A stretch of 25,273 bases of DNA from the IMG/VR virus record IMGVR_UViG_3300048592_001209, positions 1 through 25,273 of that record. One strand, 5' to 3'. Below are positions 9,427-25,273 of the stretch, piece after piece. The position numbers were made by a program, and so were the translations under genes. The notes beneath the pieces were generated by a model, which saw only the letters and a list, made by a program, of their open reading frames with translations, ran no database searches and was not told the DNA's origin. Numbering within the stretch: the first letter of the stretch is position 1; every line of letters begins with the position of its first letter. The stretch comes from a virus.

Positions 9427-9759
9427 TCAGCCCTTGCGTCCTCTGCTGGGCCGACCGCGCCCGCCGGCGGGGTCGACACCGGCGGGCAGGGACCGGCGGC
9501 GCAGGATCTCGCGTCGCTGCTCGAGGCGGGCGATCTTGGCGTCGATGCGGGCGATGTTGGTGGCGTCCTGCTTCGCGCGGGTGACGGCCCGGTCCGTCCC
9601 CACCGCGGCCGCTGGCTCTGCGGCGTCGGTGGGGACGGGCACGGGTACGGGGGCGCCGTCCGCCTGGAGCAGCTGCTCGAGGTCGGCTTTGCGGGCGCCC
9701 GCTGGGTAGTCGATGCCGGCGGCGTCGAGCCGGTCCTTGACTTCGGCGACGGTCGCCAT
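9427..9759 (-). CDS. Small SAP/HeH-like domain protein of the head-tail module
   Basis: The ATG at 9759 overlaps the capsid stop as TGATG; a GTG one codon upstream is also possible. The 110-residue protein starts with a short helix-extension-helix unit (TVAEVKDRLDAAGIDYPAGA, then RKADLEQLL), typical of HeH/SAP-like domains found just after capsid genes in actinophages. A Pro/Val/Ala-rich linker follows (GAPVPVPVPTDAAEPAAA), then a helix ending in an Arg/Gly-rich tail. It may bind nucleic acid or decorate or complete the head; the exact role is unknown. Confidence 0.6.
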   Translation of the reverse strand: MATVAEVKDRLDAAGIDYPAGARKADLEQLLQADGAPVPVPVPTDAAEPAAAVGTDRAVTRAKQDATNIARIDAKIARLEQRREILRRRSLPAGVDPAGGRGRPSRGRKG

Positions 9760-11333
9760 CACACGACCTCGGGGACGATCATCCAGAGGCCGCGGGTGTC
9801 GGTGACGCCGTGGGCGCCGAACTGGTAGACGGCGACATCACGAGACAGCGTCGAGGGGACGTCCGCCGTGAGCGTGCCGACCGGGCCGAGGAAGGTGCGG
9901 TAGGCCTCGGAGTGGGCGACGACGGCGGTGTCGGTGTCGAGTTCGGGCTCGATCCGCCACGGCAGGGTGCGGTGCTCGCCGGCGTCGGTGTCGAGACGCA
10001 TCGTGCCCATGTGGTTGAACGCCGACAACGACGGGTAGATCGGGCGGCCGTCGGTGTCTTCGAGGTCGGCGAGGGTCTGCCACAGCGACGTCGACAGCAG
10101 GATGAACGACGGGAACTGCCGCAGCGTGCCGAACATGCCAGCGACGCAGGCGTTGACTGCCTGGTTGAACGTCGCGGTCATCTCGACCTGCTGCGGTGCC
10201 GGGGTGGCGGCGACGACGCCGTCGGCGACGGCTTCGTTGACCTCGAGCGCGAGGGCTTCGAGGTGCAGGCGGTTGACCTCGTTGAGGTACTCCGGCGACG
10301 AGCGCAGCACGGTCTGCAGCGACATGCCTTGGCCGCCGGCGAACGTGTCGAGCTCCCAGGTGACCGGGGTGATGACGACGGCCTGCGATGCGATCTCGGT
10401 GTTCTCGGTCGTCTGCTTGGCGGCGGTCGCCCGGGTCGTCACCTTCGGCTGCTTGACGGAGTCGCCTTCGTCCGGGAGCGGCCGAGACGAGAACATTTCG
10501 ACCGATGGCTGCACCTGGCGTTGCAGGTCGATGATCTCGCGGATCCAGGACTCGTGGACGAGACCGGTCTGCGCTGCGGTCGTCGTCGTGGCGAGGGCAC
10601 GCTGGTAGCGGGCGAGCTCGTCGCCGTCGATCTCGCCCTTCGCGGCGGCGAGAGCGAAGTGACCGAACGACCGGAACCGGCTGCCGGCGCGGGCGCCGCC
10701 GACGGCTGCGCCGGGACGAGGGGCCGAGCGTTGCCGGGAACGCTGCGACGTCGCCGTCGTGGTGTCGGCCGTCGTGTCGTCGGTCGTGGTGTCGTCGACG
10801 TCGTCGGTCGTGGTGTCGTCGACCTGGTCGACGTCGTCGGTGGTGTCGGTGGCGGTGATCATGGTTGCTCCTTCGGTGTTGGATCGGCGGCCGACGATGC
10901 GGGCGCCGGCGTGTTGGGGGTCGGTGGTGAACGCGAAGCGGCGCAGCTGCGCGCCGGATCGTTCGATCGAGGCGCCGGCGGCGACGGGGTGCGGGTCGTC
11001 GTCGAAGTCGATCGACACCGCCTCGTAGATGCCGGCGTCGACGTCGGCGAGGAAGTCACGGCCGGCGGACGACTGCGAGATGCGCACGTCGGCGTAGAGG
11101 CCGTCGTCGCGGTCGTCGACCTGGACGGCGCGGCCCACGATCTTGCCGTCGTGCTCGACTTCGCCGAGCAGACGCTCACCGGCGACGAGCCCGCCGCGCT
11201 TGAACGACTCGGAGTAGAAGTCGCGACCGTTGTCGGTGACCTCGGCGGGTGTGTTCCACGGAACGAGGCAGACGGTGAGGGTGTCACCGTTGACGGTCGG
11301 AGCGGTGGTGCGCAGGTGGCGGGTACGGATCAT
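9759..11333 (-). CDS. Prohead protease - major capsid fusion protein
   Basis: This 524-residue frame joins two phage head proteins. Residues 1-150 are an HK97-type prohead protease (U35): likely catalytic His in LLGEVEHDGKIVGRAV and Ser in IYEAVSIDFDD. Residues about 158-200 are a low-complexity Asp/Thr linker (TTDDVDDTTTDDTTADTTT), then an Arg/Pro-rich patch. Residues about 215-524 are an HK97-fold major capsid protein, with PEYLNEVNRLHLEALALEV and a C-terminal VYQFGAHGVTDTRGLWM. The start has a GGAGG 7 nt upstream and overlaps the portal stop as ATGA. A second ATG at codon 158 has its own AAGGAG, so a free capsid protein of 367 residues may also be made. Confidence 0.85.
   Translation of the reverse strand: MIRTRHLRTTAPTVNGDTLTVCLVPWNTPAEVTDNGRDFYSESFKRGGLVAGERLLGEVEHDGKIVGRAVQVDDRDDGLYADVRISQSSAGRDFLADVDAGIYEAVSIDFDDDPHPVAAGASIERSGAQLRRFAFTTDPQHAGARIVGRRSNTEGATMITATDTTDDVDQVDDTTTDDVDDTTTDDTTADTTTATSQRSRQRSAPRPGAAVGGARAGSRFRSFGHFALAAAKGEIDGDELARYQRALATTTTAAQTGLVHESWIREIIDLQRQVQPSVEMFSSRPLPDEGDSVKQPKVTTRATAAKQTTENTEIASQAVVITPVTWELDTFAGGQGMSLQTVLRSSPEYLNEVNRLHLEALALEVNEAVADGVVAATPAPQQVEMTATFNQAVNACVAGMFGTLRQFPSFILLSTSLWQTLADLEDTDGRPIYPSLSAFNHMGTMRLDTDAGEHRTLPWRIEPELDTDTAVVAHSEAYRTFLGPVGTLTADVPSTLSRDVAVYQFGAHGVTDTRGLWMIVPEVV
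10777..10823. repeat. Two 24-bp tandem repeats in the capsid linker
   Basis: Two adjacent copies (10777-10800 and 10801-10823) of a TCG/GTC-rich unit encode the Asp/Thr-rich linker between protease and capsid. The period is a multiple of three, so the repeat can change linker length without shifting the frame. Confidence 0.7.
10860..10873 (-). promoter_or_regulatory. Internal ribosome-binding site and ATG for free capsid protein
   Basis: On the minus strand AAGGAG (10873-10868) lies 5 nt before an in-frame ATG at 10862, exactly at the junction between the protease domain and the Asp/Thr linker. It is among the strongest Shine-Dalgarno matches in the phage operon. It would yield a 367-residue linker-capsid protein besides the full-length fusion. 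Confidence 0.65.
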
Positions 11334-12355
11334 GCGACGGCCTCCAGGCGTGGCATCGGGGCGACGACGTCGGGCATGCCGCCGGCGTCGGTCGGCGACA
11401 CGAGCCGGAACATGACGTCGGTGTCCATCGTGACTTCGACGCCGGCGAGCTCGGACCAGAAGTCCTCGAGGCGGGCGATCCAGGTCGGCACCAGCGAGAA
11501 CGACAACCAGCGGGCGATCTCGCCATGCACGTTCGAGTAGGTCATCGACCCGTTCGACTTGGCATTCGCGAGCGACGGTGGCGCGTTGACGAGACGGGCG
11601 ACCTCAGATGCGCACTGCTCGAGGATCCGCCCGATCGCTTCCATCTCGCCGTTGTTCGCCGGGACCTGCAGCTCCCAGCCGGCCGGGAGCACCGCGGGGC
11701 GGCGTTCCTTGCGGGCTTCGACCCAGTCCTCGGCGGCCTCGGCCGGTGAGTAGACGGTGTTGCCGGGCCCGGTGCGGCGCAGCACCGTGGACGGGTTGCC
11801 GCCACCGGCGAAGAACATCGACAGGTACGAGTAGGCGTAGCCGTACATCGTGAGCGGCTCGGACGCCATCGACAGCGGCGACCGGCCGATCGCACCGTAG
11901 CGCGGGTCGTCGTTGATCTTGAACCAATGGATCTGGTCCTTCGCGACGATCTCGCCGTCGTAGTACCAGAACGGCACGTTCAACGGGTCGTCCGGGTCGA
12001 AGCCCGGGCCAACACGGTTCGGGTCGAGCACGGTGATCGCGTCACGGCGCCGCGATGGCATCACGAACGCGTTGCCGGTCCACCACGCGGACTGGACCAG
12101 CTTGTGCACGGTGCTGTGGCGGGACTCGTCAGGGTTCGGACGGCGGATCACCTCCGGCGTCGTGCCGCGGCCGCCGGTCACCAGTGGCATCGCGGCGAGG
12201 ACGTCGGCGTGCAGGTTCGCGAGACCGACCGCCACCGGCAGCTCCCGGACGGGTATCGGGGCGCCGGCGACGCGTGCAGCGCCGAGTGCTACGATCACCT
12301 CGGTGACGAGGCTGACGTCGGAACGGGTGCGGCGCTGCCGGCGGCGGTCGAACAT
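11330..12355 (-). CDS. Portal protein (HK97 family)
   Basis: The 341-residue protein matches the HK97 phage portal family: the clip/stem region contains VHKLVQSAWWTGNAFVMPSR and WYYDGEIVAKDQIHWFKIND, followed by the conserved GAIGRSPLSMASEPLTMYGY and SMFFAGGGNPSTVLRR, and a C-terminal NAPPSLANAKSNGSMTYSNV. Portals form the dodecameric ring for DNA entry and the packaging motor. The protein is shorter than HK97 portal (about 420 residues), in line with a small capsid. It begins close to the divergent HTH gene, so a new promoter may start here. The stop overlaps the protease-capsid start. Confidence 0.88.
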   Translation of the reverse strand: MFDRRRQRRTRSDVSLVTEVIVALGAARVAGAPIPVRELPVAVGLANLHADVLAAMPLVTGGRGTTPEVIRRPNPDESRHSTVHKLVQSAWWTGNAFVMPSRRRDAITVLDPNRVGPGFDPDDPLNVPFWYYDGEIVAKDQIHWFKINDDPRYGAIGRSPLSMASEPLTMYGYAYSYLSMFFAGGGNPSTVLRRTGPGNTVYSPAEAAEDWVEARKERRPAVLPAGWELQVPANNGEMEAIGRILEQCASEVARLVNAPPSLANAKSNGSMTYSNVHGEIARWLSFSLVPTWIARLEDFWSELAGVEVTMDTDVMFRLVSPTDAGGMPDVVAPMPRLEAVA

Positions 12356-12373
12356 GCCCGACCAGTTGATCGA

Positions 12374-12400
12374 ACGGTCGTACGATCGTGTCGTGACCGT
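12374..12400. promoter_or_regulatory. Nested palindromes between portal and divergent HTH gene
   Basis: The 37-bp gap between the portal start (12355) and the HTH start (12393) holds ACGGTC (12374-12379) and its inverse GACCGT (12395-12400). Between and overlapping these are two perfect 8-bp palindromes, TCGTACGA (12378-12385) and ACGATCGT (12382-12389). Such packing in a divergent promoter gap suggests an operator, possibly bound by the HTH protein itself. Confidence 0.45.
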
Positions 12401-12587
12401 CCCTGATCACCACCGCGCGTCTCTGATGAGCGATGAGCAGGTCGCCGAGCTGCTCGGCGTGTCTCGCGGGACGGTGCGCCGATGGCGCTACGACGGGGAC
12501 CTTCCCTACGTGCGCCTCGGCCGAAACCTGGTGAGGATCTCCCGCGACGACGTCGACGAGCTCGTCGCCTCCCGGCGCGTCACGTGA
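12393..12587 (+). CDS. Small HTH protein inserted between portal and terminase (opposite strand)
   Basis: The GTG at 12393 gives 64 residues; an ATG at 12426 is also possible. The protein is a single helix-turn-helix of the excisionase/MerR type: MSDEQVAELLGVSRGTVRRW, then a wing-like LPYVRLGRNLVRISRDDVDE. It is the only rightward gene inside the leftward structural operon and overlaps the terminase 3' end by 8 bp, tail to tail. No CI-type repressor is visible elsewhere, so this or the HTH gene next to the integrase may be the lysogeny regulator or excisionase. Its exact job is unknown. Confidence 0.75.
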   Translation: MTVPDHHRASLMSDEQVAELLGVSRGTVRRWRYDGDLPYVRLGRNLVRISRDDVDELVASRRVT

Positions 12588-14127
12588 TGCGGTCGATGCG
12601 GGCGCCGGCGGGGAACAGGCGCCGGTAGTGGCCGAGCGCCCACGTGGCGGCCTGGATCGGGTCGAGGGGCACGTCGGCGGCGCGTTGATCGAACGCCCGG
12701 GCGCCGCCGAGGGGCCGCCACCGCGACCCTGCGGCCGCGGTGTTCAGGTCGGGCTGGTCCTGATGGGCGAAGCTGCGTTGCTCGAGCTCGTCGACGAGGG
12801 TGCCGCAGTGGCCGCCGACGTCGACGCCGGAGAGCTCGTCGACGGCGAGGCCGCGGCCGGCGGCGCGGTCGATGATGCCGCCGGCGCCGGCGGAACGGTC
12901 GGCGACGATCGCGACGGAGTGGCGGGCGGTGAGCTGCTCGAGGACGTCGACGACCCAGCCGGTGCCGGGACGTCGATCGACGACGACGCCGACGCGACCG
13001 TCGGGGAGGCCGCCGGCGACCGCGACGGAGGTGTGCGAGCGGGTCGGGTGGATGTGCACACCGGTGACGAACGGCGCCGTGATGGGCAGGTCGACGTCGG
13101 CGTCGCCGGCGGCTTCGGTCCACAGGTCCATGTCGATCGCCGAGGACTGGGCGATCGTCGGGCGCCGGCACAGCCACGCACGGTCGAAGTCGGCGTTGGT
13201 CATCGACGTCCGATAGGACCGGATCCGTTCCACGGTGATGGTGGTGCCGAGCGCCGGCATGCATTGCGCCCACACGGCGGGGTCGTCGCCGTCGGCGTCG
13301 TCGTCGGCTGACCACTCGAACAGGGCGATGCGGGCGTCGGGGTCGTTGATCGCGGCGAGGCCGACGTCCTGGTAGTGCAGCAGTAGGCCGTCGTCGCCTT
13401 CGCCGACGGTGGACACGATCGTCAACTGCGGATCGGCGCGGGTCGCCATCGTCGGCTGGATCGACGCGATCACGGAGGTGTCGGCGTAGACGAACGCTTC
13501 GTCGAGGACGCCGTCGTCGACGGTCTTGCCGTCGGCCATCGAGTCGTTCGACGGCACGATGAAGATCCTCGAGCCGAGCCCGGCGCCGGCGGTCCAGCGG
13601 ATGTGTGCGGAGCCGTTCGAGCGGCGTGGTTTGGTGCGAGGCCCGAAGTAGGGGTGGCGGGCGAGGTCACGGTCGTACCACTCGTCGATCAGTTTCTCGC
13701 GGGCCTTGTCGGCGTTCTGGGCGGCGTAGATCAGCTGACGCCACGGTGCGATCTCCGCCGAGCGGGCGAGCTTCGCGACGATGTAGGTCGTCTTGCCGTT
13801 CTGGCGCGGGATGATGATGACGATCAGGTCGTACCAGAGCAGCCCGGTCGCCGGGTCGAGCTCGTGGGCGACGTCGGCGATGAACCGCTGATGCGGCATG
13901 AAGTAGTCGCCACCGGTGAGCAGGAAGTGGTAGTCCTCGACGAGGCCGCCGACCGTCGGGCGTTCAAGGTTCCGTTCGGTCGTGAATCTTGGCGGACATC
14001 GCAGCGAAGAACTCGTCAACGGTGGTTGCGTCGATCTCAGCTCGGACGGGCGCCAGATCGCGGCGGATCGCTTGGAGCTGGCGGGCGGTGTTGATCTTGC
14101 CGTAGCGGTCGCCTTCGGCTTCGGCAC
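12580..14127 (-). CDS. Terminase large subunit
   Basis: The protein has the ATPase and nuclease arrangement of phage terminases. Walker A is IIPRQNGKTTYIVAK, Walker B is DDGVLDEAFVYA, and the coupling motif is TIVSTVGEG. The C-terminal RNase H-like nuclease domain has acidic residues in VTGVHIHPTR, VAIVADRSAGAGG and near the end. It cuts concatemeric DNA and drives it into the prohead through the portal. The GTG at 14127 has a GGGAG 7 nt upstream but overlaps the small terminase gene by 164 bp, and the first 50 residues look like low-complexity shadow coding. A TTG at 14019 is an alternative start without a good Shine-Dalgarno. Confidence 0.9.
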   Translation of the reverse strand: MPKPKATATARSTPPASSKRSAAIWRPSELRSTQPPLTSSSLRCPPRFTTERNLERPTVGGLVEDYHFLLTGGDYFMPHQRFIADVAHELDPATGLLWYDLIVIIIPRQNGKTTYIVAKLARSAEIAPWRQLIYAAQNADKAREKLIDEWYDRDLARHPYFGPRTKPRRSNGSAHIRWTAGAGLGSRIFIVPSNDSMADGKTVDDGVLDEAFVYADTSVIASIQPTMATRADPQLTIVSTVGEGDDGLLLHYQDVGLAAINDPDARIALFEWSADDDADGDDPAVWAQCMPALGTTITVERIRSYRTSMTNADFDRAWLCRRPTIAQSSAIDMDLWTEAAGDADVDLPITAPFVTGVHIHPTRSHTSVAVAGGLPDGRVGVVVDRRPGTGWVVDVLEQLTARHSVAIVADRSAGAGGIIDRAAGRGLAVDELSGVDVGGHCGTLVDELEQRSFAHQDQPDLNTAAAGSRWRPLGGARAFDQRAADVPLDPIQAATWALGHYRRLFPAGARIDRIT

Positions 14128-22757: not shown

Positions 22758-22770
22758 CGGCCCGGCACCG

Positions 22771-22890
22771 AAGCGATGAGTGAAACCGCCGTATGCGGTC
22801 AGTTCGCTCATCGCCGGGGGTGGCACGCGGGAAGCGATGAGTGAAACCGCCGTATGCGGTCAGTTCGCTCATCGCCGGGGGTGGCACGCG
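22771..22890. repeat. Tandem pair of 59-bp hairpin repeats
   Basis: Two copies (22771-22829 and 22832-22890, period 61 bp) are identical over 59 bp. Each can fold into a hairpin: GCGATGAGTGAA pairs with TTCGCTCATCGC (one G-U), a 3-nt CAG bulge, then ACCGC with GCGGT around the loop CGTAT, about 17 bp in all. They fill the gap between two convergent genes, so they may act as a bidirectional terminator or a REP-type element. There is no T-run. Confidence 0.85.
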
Positions 22891-23748: not shown

Positions 23749-24501
23749 TCAGCCCCACATCGCTTTCAGGACGGGCTCGGCCAGCTCCGGTCGGCACACG
23801 ATGAAGTCCGGCAGCCACGGGTCGCGATCGTTGTAGACGATCGGCGAGCCATCGAGCCGACTGACGTGGAATCCCGATGCGAGTGCCACGCCTGCCGGCG
23901 CGGCAGAGTCCCACTGGTACATGCCGCCGTCGTGCACGTAGATGTCGGTCTCGCCCATCACGACCGACATCGCCTTCGCCCCGGCGGAGCCGAGTCGGAC
24001 GGCGTCGCAGTCGAGTCCCTCCACGACGAGCACGGCCGCGTACGGCGCGCGGGTGCGTGACGTGACGAGGATCGGCCGCTCGCGTTCGAACGGCGGCATC
24101 GGAGTGGGATCGTCGGTCGTGAAGGTCCGACCGACGGCCGGCAGGCTCACCGCTGCGGCGCCGAAGCGGTCACCGGTCCACAGAGCGATGTGCACGGCCC
24201 AGTCGATGCGACCGGGCTCGCCGAACTCGCGCGTGCCGTCGAGCGGGTCGACGATCCACACCCGATCGGCGCCGAAGCGGCGAGGGTCCTCGCGACCCTC
24301 TTCGGACAGTACGGCATCGTCGGGGCGGTGTGTCGCAAACTCCTGAGCCAGGAATCGTTGGGCGACGGCGTCGCCGGCATCCTTCACGTCCCAGGTGGAG
24401 GCGCCCGCCGCGAACATCTTCTCGCGCAGCTCCAACAGGAGATGACCGGCCTGCGTCGCCAACCGCGTGGCGAGCTGACCGTCGGTCTCCGTGGAAGGCA
24501 T
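23749..24501 (-). CDS. cysQ: Inositol monophosphatase-family phosphatase, CysQ-like (3'(2'),5'-bisphosphate nucleotidase)
   Basis: The 250-residue protein shows the metal-binding signatures of the family: Glu in DAVLSEEGRED, RVWIVDPLDGTREFGEPGRI with the two Asp, and MYQWDSAAPAGVALASG near the C-terminus. CysQ removes the 3'-phosphate from PAP, a by-product of sulfate assimilation and sulfonation; members of this family may also act on inositol phosphates, so substrate is not certain. The start is 12 bp from a large palindrome that fills the upstream gap, and no good Shine-Dalgarno is visible before the ATG. Confidence 0.82.
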   Translation of the reverse strand: MPSTETDGQLATRLATQAGHLLLELREKMFAAGASTWDVKDAGDAVAQRFLAQEFATHRPDDAVLSEEGREDPRRFGADRVWIVDPLDGTREFGEPGRIDWAVHIALWTGDRFGAAAVSLPAVGRTFTTDDPTPMPPFERERPILVTSRTRAPYAAVLVVEGLDCDAVRLGSAGAKAMSVVMGETDIYVHDGGMYQWDSAAPAGVALASGFHVSRLDGSPIVYNDRDPWLPDFIVCRPELAEPVLKAMWG

Positions 24502-24512
24502 CGAGCCAGTCT

Positions 24513-24601
24513 GCCAGCTCGATTACATCAGGGGTCAGACCCGCGATGTAATCGACGTACGATTACATCGCGGGTCTGACCCCTGATGTAATCGAGCTGG
24601 C
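24513..24601. repeat. 89-bp nested palindrome, REPIN-like
   Basis: Two perfect 42-bp arms (24513-24554 and 24560-24601) flank a 5-bp loop ACGTA. Each arm is itself an inverted repeat: GATTACATC and GATGTAATC flank GGGTCAGACCC. Four GATTACATC-type units in alternating orientation result. The element fills nearly all of the gap between ettA and cysQ. The form, two mirrored REP-like units, is that of a REPIN. Confidence 0.9.
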
Positions 24602-24605
24602 GTGA

Positions 24606-25273
24606 TCAGGCGAGCTTCTTGTACTTGATGCGATGGGGTTGGTCGGCGCCGGCGCCGAGTTCCTTCTTGCGACGCTCCTCGTACTCGGAGAAGTTGCCCT
24701 CGAACCAGCGCACCTGGCTGTCGCCCTCGAAGGCCAGCACGTGGGTGGCGACCCGGTCGAGGAACCAGCGGTCGTGCGAGATGATCACCGCGCAGCCGGG
24801 GAAGGACTCGAGGCCCGCTTCGAGTGCCCGCAGGGTGTCCATGTCGAGGTCGTTGGTCGGCTCGTCGAGCAGCAGCACGTTGCCGCCGGACTTCAACAGC
24901 TTGGCGAGGTGCACCCGGTTGCGTTCGCCACCAGAGAGGTCACCGACGCGCTTGCCGTGGTCGGTGCCCTTGAAGTTGAAGCTCGAGACGTAGGCGCGAC
25001 CGTGGATCTCGCGTCCACCGACGTCGAGCACCTCCGCGCCGCCGGTGATCTCCTCGTACACGGTCGCGTCCGGGTCGAGATCGTCGCGGTCCTGGTCGAC
25101 GTAGGAGAGGTCGACGGTGTCGCCGATCTTGATCGAGCCGGAGTCCGGCTCCTCGCGGCCGGCGAGCATCTTGAACAGCGTCGACTTGCCGGCGCCGTTC
25201 GGGCCGATGATGCCGACGATGCCGGCAGGTGGCAGCGTGAACGACAGGTCCTCGATCAGGAGTCGATCGCCGA
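24606..25273 (-). CDS. ettA: Energy-dependent translational throttle protein EttA, C-terminal part (5' truncated by window)
   Basis: The frame is open to the window edge, so only the second ABC domain (about 222 residues) is seen. Walker A is [17 protein letters not shown], the signature is [17 protein letters not shown], Walker B is [17 protein letters not shown], and the switch His is in [20 protein letters not shown]. The ending [13 protein letters not shown] is characteristic of EttA. This ABC-F protein binds the ribosomal E site and gates entry into elongation according to ATP level. It is a chromosomal housekeeping gene; its stop lies 5 bp from the palindrome. Confidence 0.95.

Follow-up and report, generated by a model that had tools for sequence, protein, structure and literature searches.

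Locus and architecture of the palindrome

The 25,273-nucleotide stretch of DNA analysed here (the window) is a virus record in which integrase, capsid-like, portal and terminase genes, at 1690–2805 and 9759–14127, are flanked by host-type genes, as determined from Pfam matches. On this arrangement the record is read as a provirus with host flanks, and the palindrome under study would lie within the host flank. Among the genomes examined, the closest relative by cysQ is an Ilumatobacteraceae MAG (G001), whose cysQ and ettA are 89% and 96% identical to those of the window. The features of the locus are collected in Table 1.

Table 1. Features of the ettA–cysQ region, in window coordinates
Feature	Position	Strand	Basis or remark
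cysQ-like gene, inositol monophosphatase family	23749–24501	-	NCBIfam best model CysQ, below cut-off
cysQ -10-like box CAGACT, adjoining the palindrome (one base common to both)	24508–24513	-	position kept in relatives
Whole doublet, perfect palindrome, 42-bp arms, 5-nt loop	24513–24601	.	inverted-repeat search
8-bp outer extension GCCAGCTC, mirror GAGCTGGC at 24594–24601	24513–24520	.	absent from sister doublet L003
Unit 1, GATTACATC-AG-GGGTCAGACCC-GC-GATGTAATC, stem-bulge-stem hairpin	24521–24553	+	sequence; ssDNA fold
Conserved core GGGTCAGACCC	24532–24542	+	sequence
Unit 2, inverted copy of unit 1	24561–24593	-	sequence; ssDNA fold
Second core GGGTCAGACCC, inverted	24572–24582	-	sequence
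ettA 3' part (ABC-F)	24606–25271	-	EttA models are the best matches

The ettA stop codon occupies 24606–24608, with the palindrome 4 nt downstream, and 12 bases separate the arm edge from the cysQ ATG, which begins at 24501; the placement given in the original prediction, between the two genes and 12 bp from the cysQ start, is exact in both respects. The same holds for the coordinates of the perfect palindrome itself, whose 42-nt arms (24513–24554 and 24560–24601) are 100% complementary around the loop ACGTA. The runner-up among the perfect inverted repeats of the window (loop under 20) has arms of 16 bp. Further palindromes had been proposed to be nested inside each arm, and both arms indeed contain them: each 33-nt unit folds alone, with GATTACATC pairing with GATGTAATC around GGGTCAGACCC and the stem interrupted by a 2-nt mismatch in which AG faces GC. 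Together with the preceding G, the core gives GGGGTCAG (unit 1, 24531–24538), which matches the published TIR consensus GGGGWSAS (PMC3733652). The strand bearing ettA and cysQ is predicted to fold into one long stem at -97.5 kcal/mol, compared with -38.9 ± 3.7 kcal/mol for shuffled sequences. The 8-bp outer extension is peculiar to the arms of the window. On the cysQ side its AGCTGGC is native sequence, G001 reading AGCTGGCAGAATGG at the same place, so that insertion may have occurred into the palindrome GCCAGCTGGC, or else the flank may have been copied.

Two enoyl-CoA hydratase-like genes flank a separate repeat at 22770–22890 of the window, which consists of two identical 60-nt copies with a spacing of 61, each containing a hairpin GCGATGAG...CTCATCGC. 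With 3 mismatches allowed, no match to a 29-base piece of this repeat was found in 221 family genomes.

A dispersed family of hairpins with a fixed core

Scanning genome contigs for the unit, specified at 20 bases, matched six stretches, only one of which (L003, in G001) contains both halves; the other five look like chance or coding matches and were rejected as family copies. The corresponding pattern scan of viral contigs gave 0 matches, and an Rfam search of the window gave none. L003 is a doublet that reads GATTACACC-AG-core-GC-GATGTAATT, followed by a spacer unlike that of the window and then the mirror copy. Its arms are nearly the same as those of the window, with a single paired difference at the outer ends (GATTACACC/GGTGTAATC), and the sequence beyond the arms is unlike that of the window.

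The core itself is far more widespread than this stem type. G001 contains 57 exact GGGTCAGACCC cores, as compared with 0 for the reversed control and 5.3 predicted from base composition alone. Inspection of all 57 revealed that most form the centre of a longer hairpin, the stems of which differ but fall into a few recurring types. The stem type of the window is rare: with 3 mismatches allowed, 221 family genomes yielded a single site (two units), again in G001. The highest count found, 188 exact cores, belongs to another member of the order (G336; L216). Many cores of G056 are found no more than 30 bases from a contig start, as if the hairpins break assemblies.

The variable stems nevertheless pair within each copy. 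Over the first 10 stem positions, 420 pairs were counted in G001 against 271 ± 15 between copies, a value reached by 0 of 1000 permutations. Likewise, pairing within copies exceeded that between copies in G042 (181 vs 125), G023 (194 vs 173) and G025 (114 vs 100), and more weakly in G084 (104 vs 93, reached by 14 of 1000 permutations). At stem positions 17–30 the excess is absent from all five genomes; what is conserved is thus the hairpin. Insertion into pre-existing palindromes was rejected as a general rule, as none of the five genomes has excess flank pairing at positions 17–30.

Inverted pairs, i.e. doublets, are present in several genomes. Arm lengths are 42 bp in the window, 32 in L003 and 37 in G095 (L189), and mirror-perfect arms of 27–28 bp were found in 10 of 11 doublets of G025 and G084, the exception being L186; imperfect arms occur in G042 (L137), G023 (L151) and G056 (L150). 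Mirror-identical arms being usual among doublets, arm identity alone does not date the copy in the window, and the earlier argument that perfect arms imply recent formation is weakened. One doublet (L177 and L186) occupies the same site in G025 and G084. It apparently lies inside a conserved gene, to judge from the close alignment of both flanks up to its edges.

In G001, 58 of 114 core sides lie at most 20 nt from a stop codon ending an open frame of at least 100 codons, compared with 5.3% for random positions; the figure is inflated, some stems containing or completing TGA themselves. Since stems can supply the stop codon in this way, adjoining a stop codon is treated as no more than a possible targeting rule.

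Association with a Y1 transposase

No REP-type Y1 transposase was found within the 25-kb window, and copy numbers and transposase genes were counted in the genomes of relatives. A PF01797 (Y1_Tnp) gene was present in 20 genomes of a family set of 150. At least 10 cores were found in 8 of these 20 carriers, compared with 1 of the 130 non-carriers (Fisher 2e-7, independence being overstated for related genomes); upon restriction to genomes of at least 2.4 Mb the proportions were 8/20 and 1/50 (1e-4, with independence overstated in the same way). The sole high-copy non-carrier, G001, retains a transposase relic, recovered by protein search as two frames and a stop, on the flanks of which no core was found.

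Similarly, an order-wide set, consisting of all 16 newly sampled genomes with at least 10 cores and 20 low-copy genomes of 3.2–4.9 Mb chosen by size, displayed PF01797 in 12/16 high-copy and 2/20 low-copy genomes (p 1e-4, again with independence overstated by relatedness). The gene was found in all 12 genomes of this set with at least 16 cores and in none of the four with 10–12. One of the low-copy carriers (G340) has 23 PF01797 matches, the best scores of which resemble ordinary IS200.

The exact core lies on both sides of the transposase gene in nine genomes (G023, G042, G249, G392, G336, G416, G391, G351 and G279). Near-variant cores border the gene in G137, G126, G115 (GGGTCAGGCCC) and G084, and in the last of these the doublets beside the gene resemble the stems of the dispersed doublets. 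Among the transposase loci listed for G252, G267, G294, G360, G367, G056 and G025, none has an exact core on both sides. Other transposase genes (L196, L193–L195, L211 and L229) are bordered by the variant cores GTGTCAGACAC, GGGTCAGGCCC and GTGCCAGGCAC, which suggests parallel families with their own enzymes.

Alignment of six of the transposase proteins showed H60 and H62 (HUH) as well as Y119 to be kept in 6/6. In NCBIfam they match REP-associated tyrosine transposase best, at scores under the cut-off of that model. Evidence for a helix-turn-helix at the C-terminus is weak, with matches to Bac_DnaA_C (E 0.022 and 0.0072) or HTH_17 (0.0073) in 3/6 proteins, all below cut-off. A search with the G023 transposase matched no solved chain by sequence at E 0.1.

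The ettA–cysQ gap in relatives

The usual Shine-Dalgarno had been reported missing at cysQ, and none is present in the window. For comparison, 31 cysQ sequences were collected, of which one was dropped for want of a start and 30 were assigned a start codon. A Shine-Dalgarno was found in 0/30, and a -10-like box is located 12–17 bases before the start in 23/30. Relatives without the element thus also lack a Shine-Dalgarno and share the -10-like box, which contradicts the proposal that the element replaced a native leader. On this comparison the missing Shine-Dalgarno is ancestral, and the position of the box suggests leaderless transcription. As the CAGACT box adjoins the palindrome, the sequence upstream of the cysQ -10 is now all palindrome; the doublet may alter the upstream region of the cysQ promoter, and possibly its strength. 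As RNA, it may place a strong stem after ettA. The doublet is probably near-neutral at this site.

An exact core upstream of cysQ was found in 1/30 relatives with a cysQ locus (G001) and was absent from the other 29. The G001 core follows directly after the ettA stop and carries the stem ATCGCGATTG, unlike that of the window. Many of the 29 core-less loci had no ettA identified beside cysQ, and in L116 the gap is a stretch of N; L111 retains 10 bases of the core (GGTCTGACCC) immediately past its ettA stop. Conservation at this place, which the original prediction had named as evidence against its own reading, is therefore confined to the nearest relative, in the form of a different-stemmed member, and the exact core is not seen here in the remaining relatives.

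Comparing 60 loci of other genomes with 51 loci of G001 gave matches for seven, against a rough chance expectation of 0.8 that assumes a guessed 3400 gaps; the excess is suggestive only. Among the seven, the alignment of L152 (G023)/L052 (G001) covers both flanks of the core, and in a few others a single flank aligns. The core of this pair lies directly 3' of the same stop codon in both genomes, with different, internally paired stems and with the centre base inverted. Occupation of the same gap with different stems may point to a hotspot or to coincidence, to gradual change of the stems or to their replacement in place. The last possibility was considered from the different stems at the ettA–cysQ gap (window against G001) and at L152/L052: the family would rewrite itself in place, a site keeping its GGGTCAGACCC centre while its stems are swapped for those current in each genome, e.g. 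via new copies targeting the core of old copies. We regard this as an unlikely, speculative scenario.

Origin of the palindrome

The palindrome is very probably a non-autonomous mobile REPIN-like doublet, mobilised in trans by a REP-associated/TIRYT-type Y1 HUH transposase that is bordered by the same hairpins. The family is present in relatives, where stems vary yet pair, doublets are mirror-symmetric, copy number follows the transposase and several transposase genes are bracketed. The biochemistry of E. coli TnpA-REP and of the IS200/IS605 enzymes is known, and comprises binding of a single-strand hairpin, cutting and rejoining. By analogy, the two inverted GGGTCAGACCC-core hairpins would move, or would once have moved, as a single long hairpin, which the Y1 HUH enzyme, encoded by a gene bordered by the same hairpins, would bind in single-stranded form, cut and rejoin. 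The copy in the window would have arrived by such transposition, and its host would have, or have had, such an enzyme.

That copy number follows the transposase gene, that no U-tract terminator was called at the palindrome and that the exact core is missing upstream of cysQ in 29/30 relatives, some with ettA and cysQ adjacent, together render improbable the explanation that the palindrome is immobile and conserved for a function in ettA, ending transcription or stabilising the 3' end of the mRNA. This is the alternative that survives best, as the RNA fold is very stable, the palindrome begins 4 nt past the ettA stop, the G001 core hairpin likewise follows right after the ettA stop, and many G001 copies adjoin stop codons (the 58/114 core sides, inflated by TGA in stems). 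A MITE of an ordinary DDE transposase, with terminal inverted repeats and target-site duplication, is very improbable: the window does have AGCT on each side of CGATTACATC...GATGTAATCG, but the sister doublet L003 lacks such a flanking repeat, the gene between core copies encodes a Y1 transposase and not a DDE enzyme, and the stems covary, unlike conserved terminal repeats. Least probable of all is that the palindrome is an artefact of assembly or fold-back, or stems from an isolated inverted duplication, as could be imagined from the perfect arms and from the outermost 8 bp mirroring native flank in the manner of snap-back copying, given that both sides continue as in G001 in gene order and sequence (ettA 96%, cysQ 89%) and that nearly the same doublet occurs elsewhere (L003) with a different spacer.

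Relation to known REP and TIR elements

The mobile doublet favoured here resembles the REPINs of Bertels and Rainey (2011, PMC3116915) in having two palindromic units that are inverted about a spacer and fold together into one long hairpin, in the paired changes between its ends and, in relatives, in its dispersal and its association with a REP-type transposase. It differs from them in lacking a GTAG foot, and the copies fetched from G023 and G042 are mostly singles rather than doublets. GTAG or GTGG at the unit foot is absent from both units of the window, and by eye neither is a regular feature among the relatives' copies listed. The stem-bulge-stem hairpin is shared with E. coli REP/BIME and TnpA-REP, where the likeness in single-strand Y1 recognition is by analogy only and the GTAG guide is absent from the present family.

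Di Nocera et al. (2013, PMC3733652) distinguish GTAG-footed REPs with RAYTs from TIRYTs bordered by terminal repeats, some of which share GGGGWSAS. Most TIRYTs belong to TnpA-Y1 subclass 2.1 and have a helix-turn-helix at the C-terminus (PMC6006769). The likeness to TIR/TIRYT extends to the relatives' proteins, which are Y1 transposases carrying the HUH and Tyr motifs and hints of a helix-turn-helix at the C-terminus, to a transposase gene bordered in relatives by repeats whose core GGGGTCAG fits GGGGWSAS, and to self-complementary repeats found elsewhere in the genome as singles, dimers and groups. Unlike the elements described there, the present repeats form complete hairpins in which the centre is fixed and the stems change; they reach 188 exact cores in a single genome and occur in Ilumatobacteraceae and their order. 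The TIRYT helix-turn-helix is of the Bac_DnaA_C, HTH_23 or HTH_28 type; the helix-turn-helix matches of the relatives' proteins are weak and below cut-off. Given that GGGGTCAG fits GGGGWSAS, that the GTAG foot is absent and that the helix-turn-helix matches are weak, the palindrome is assigned to the TIR/TIRYT (GGGGWSAS) branch as a REPIN-like doublet, without commitment to a subclass. The original prediction of a REPIN with a RAYT elsewhere in the genome stands as regards the REPIN-like doublet, the dispersed family and, in relatives, a Y1 REP-type transposase; it is amended in that the GTAG foot is absent and the anatomy fits TIR/TIRYT instead of the classical GTAG REP.

REP counts are given for Acidimicrobium in PMC12306157, and no prior description of this hairpin family was found in the open-access literature. 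The palindrome is a new example within a known kind of element, not a new kind. With it, REP/RAYT-type elements of the little-studied TIRYT branch now reach an environmental actinobacterial group, for which copy numbers, cognate transposase genes and both occupied and empty sites are in hand. The fixed centre with its changing paired stems constitutes a natural series on Y1 transposase recognition without a GTAG guide.
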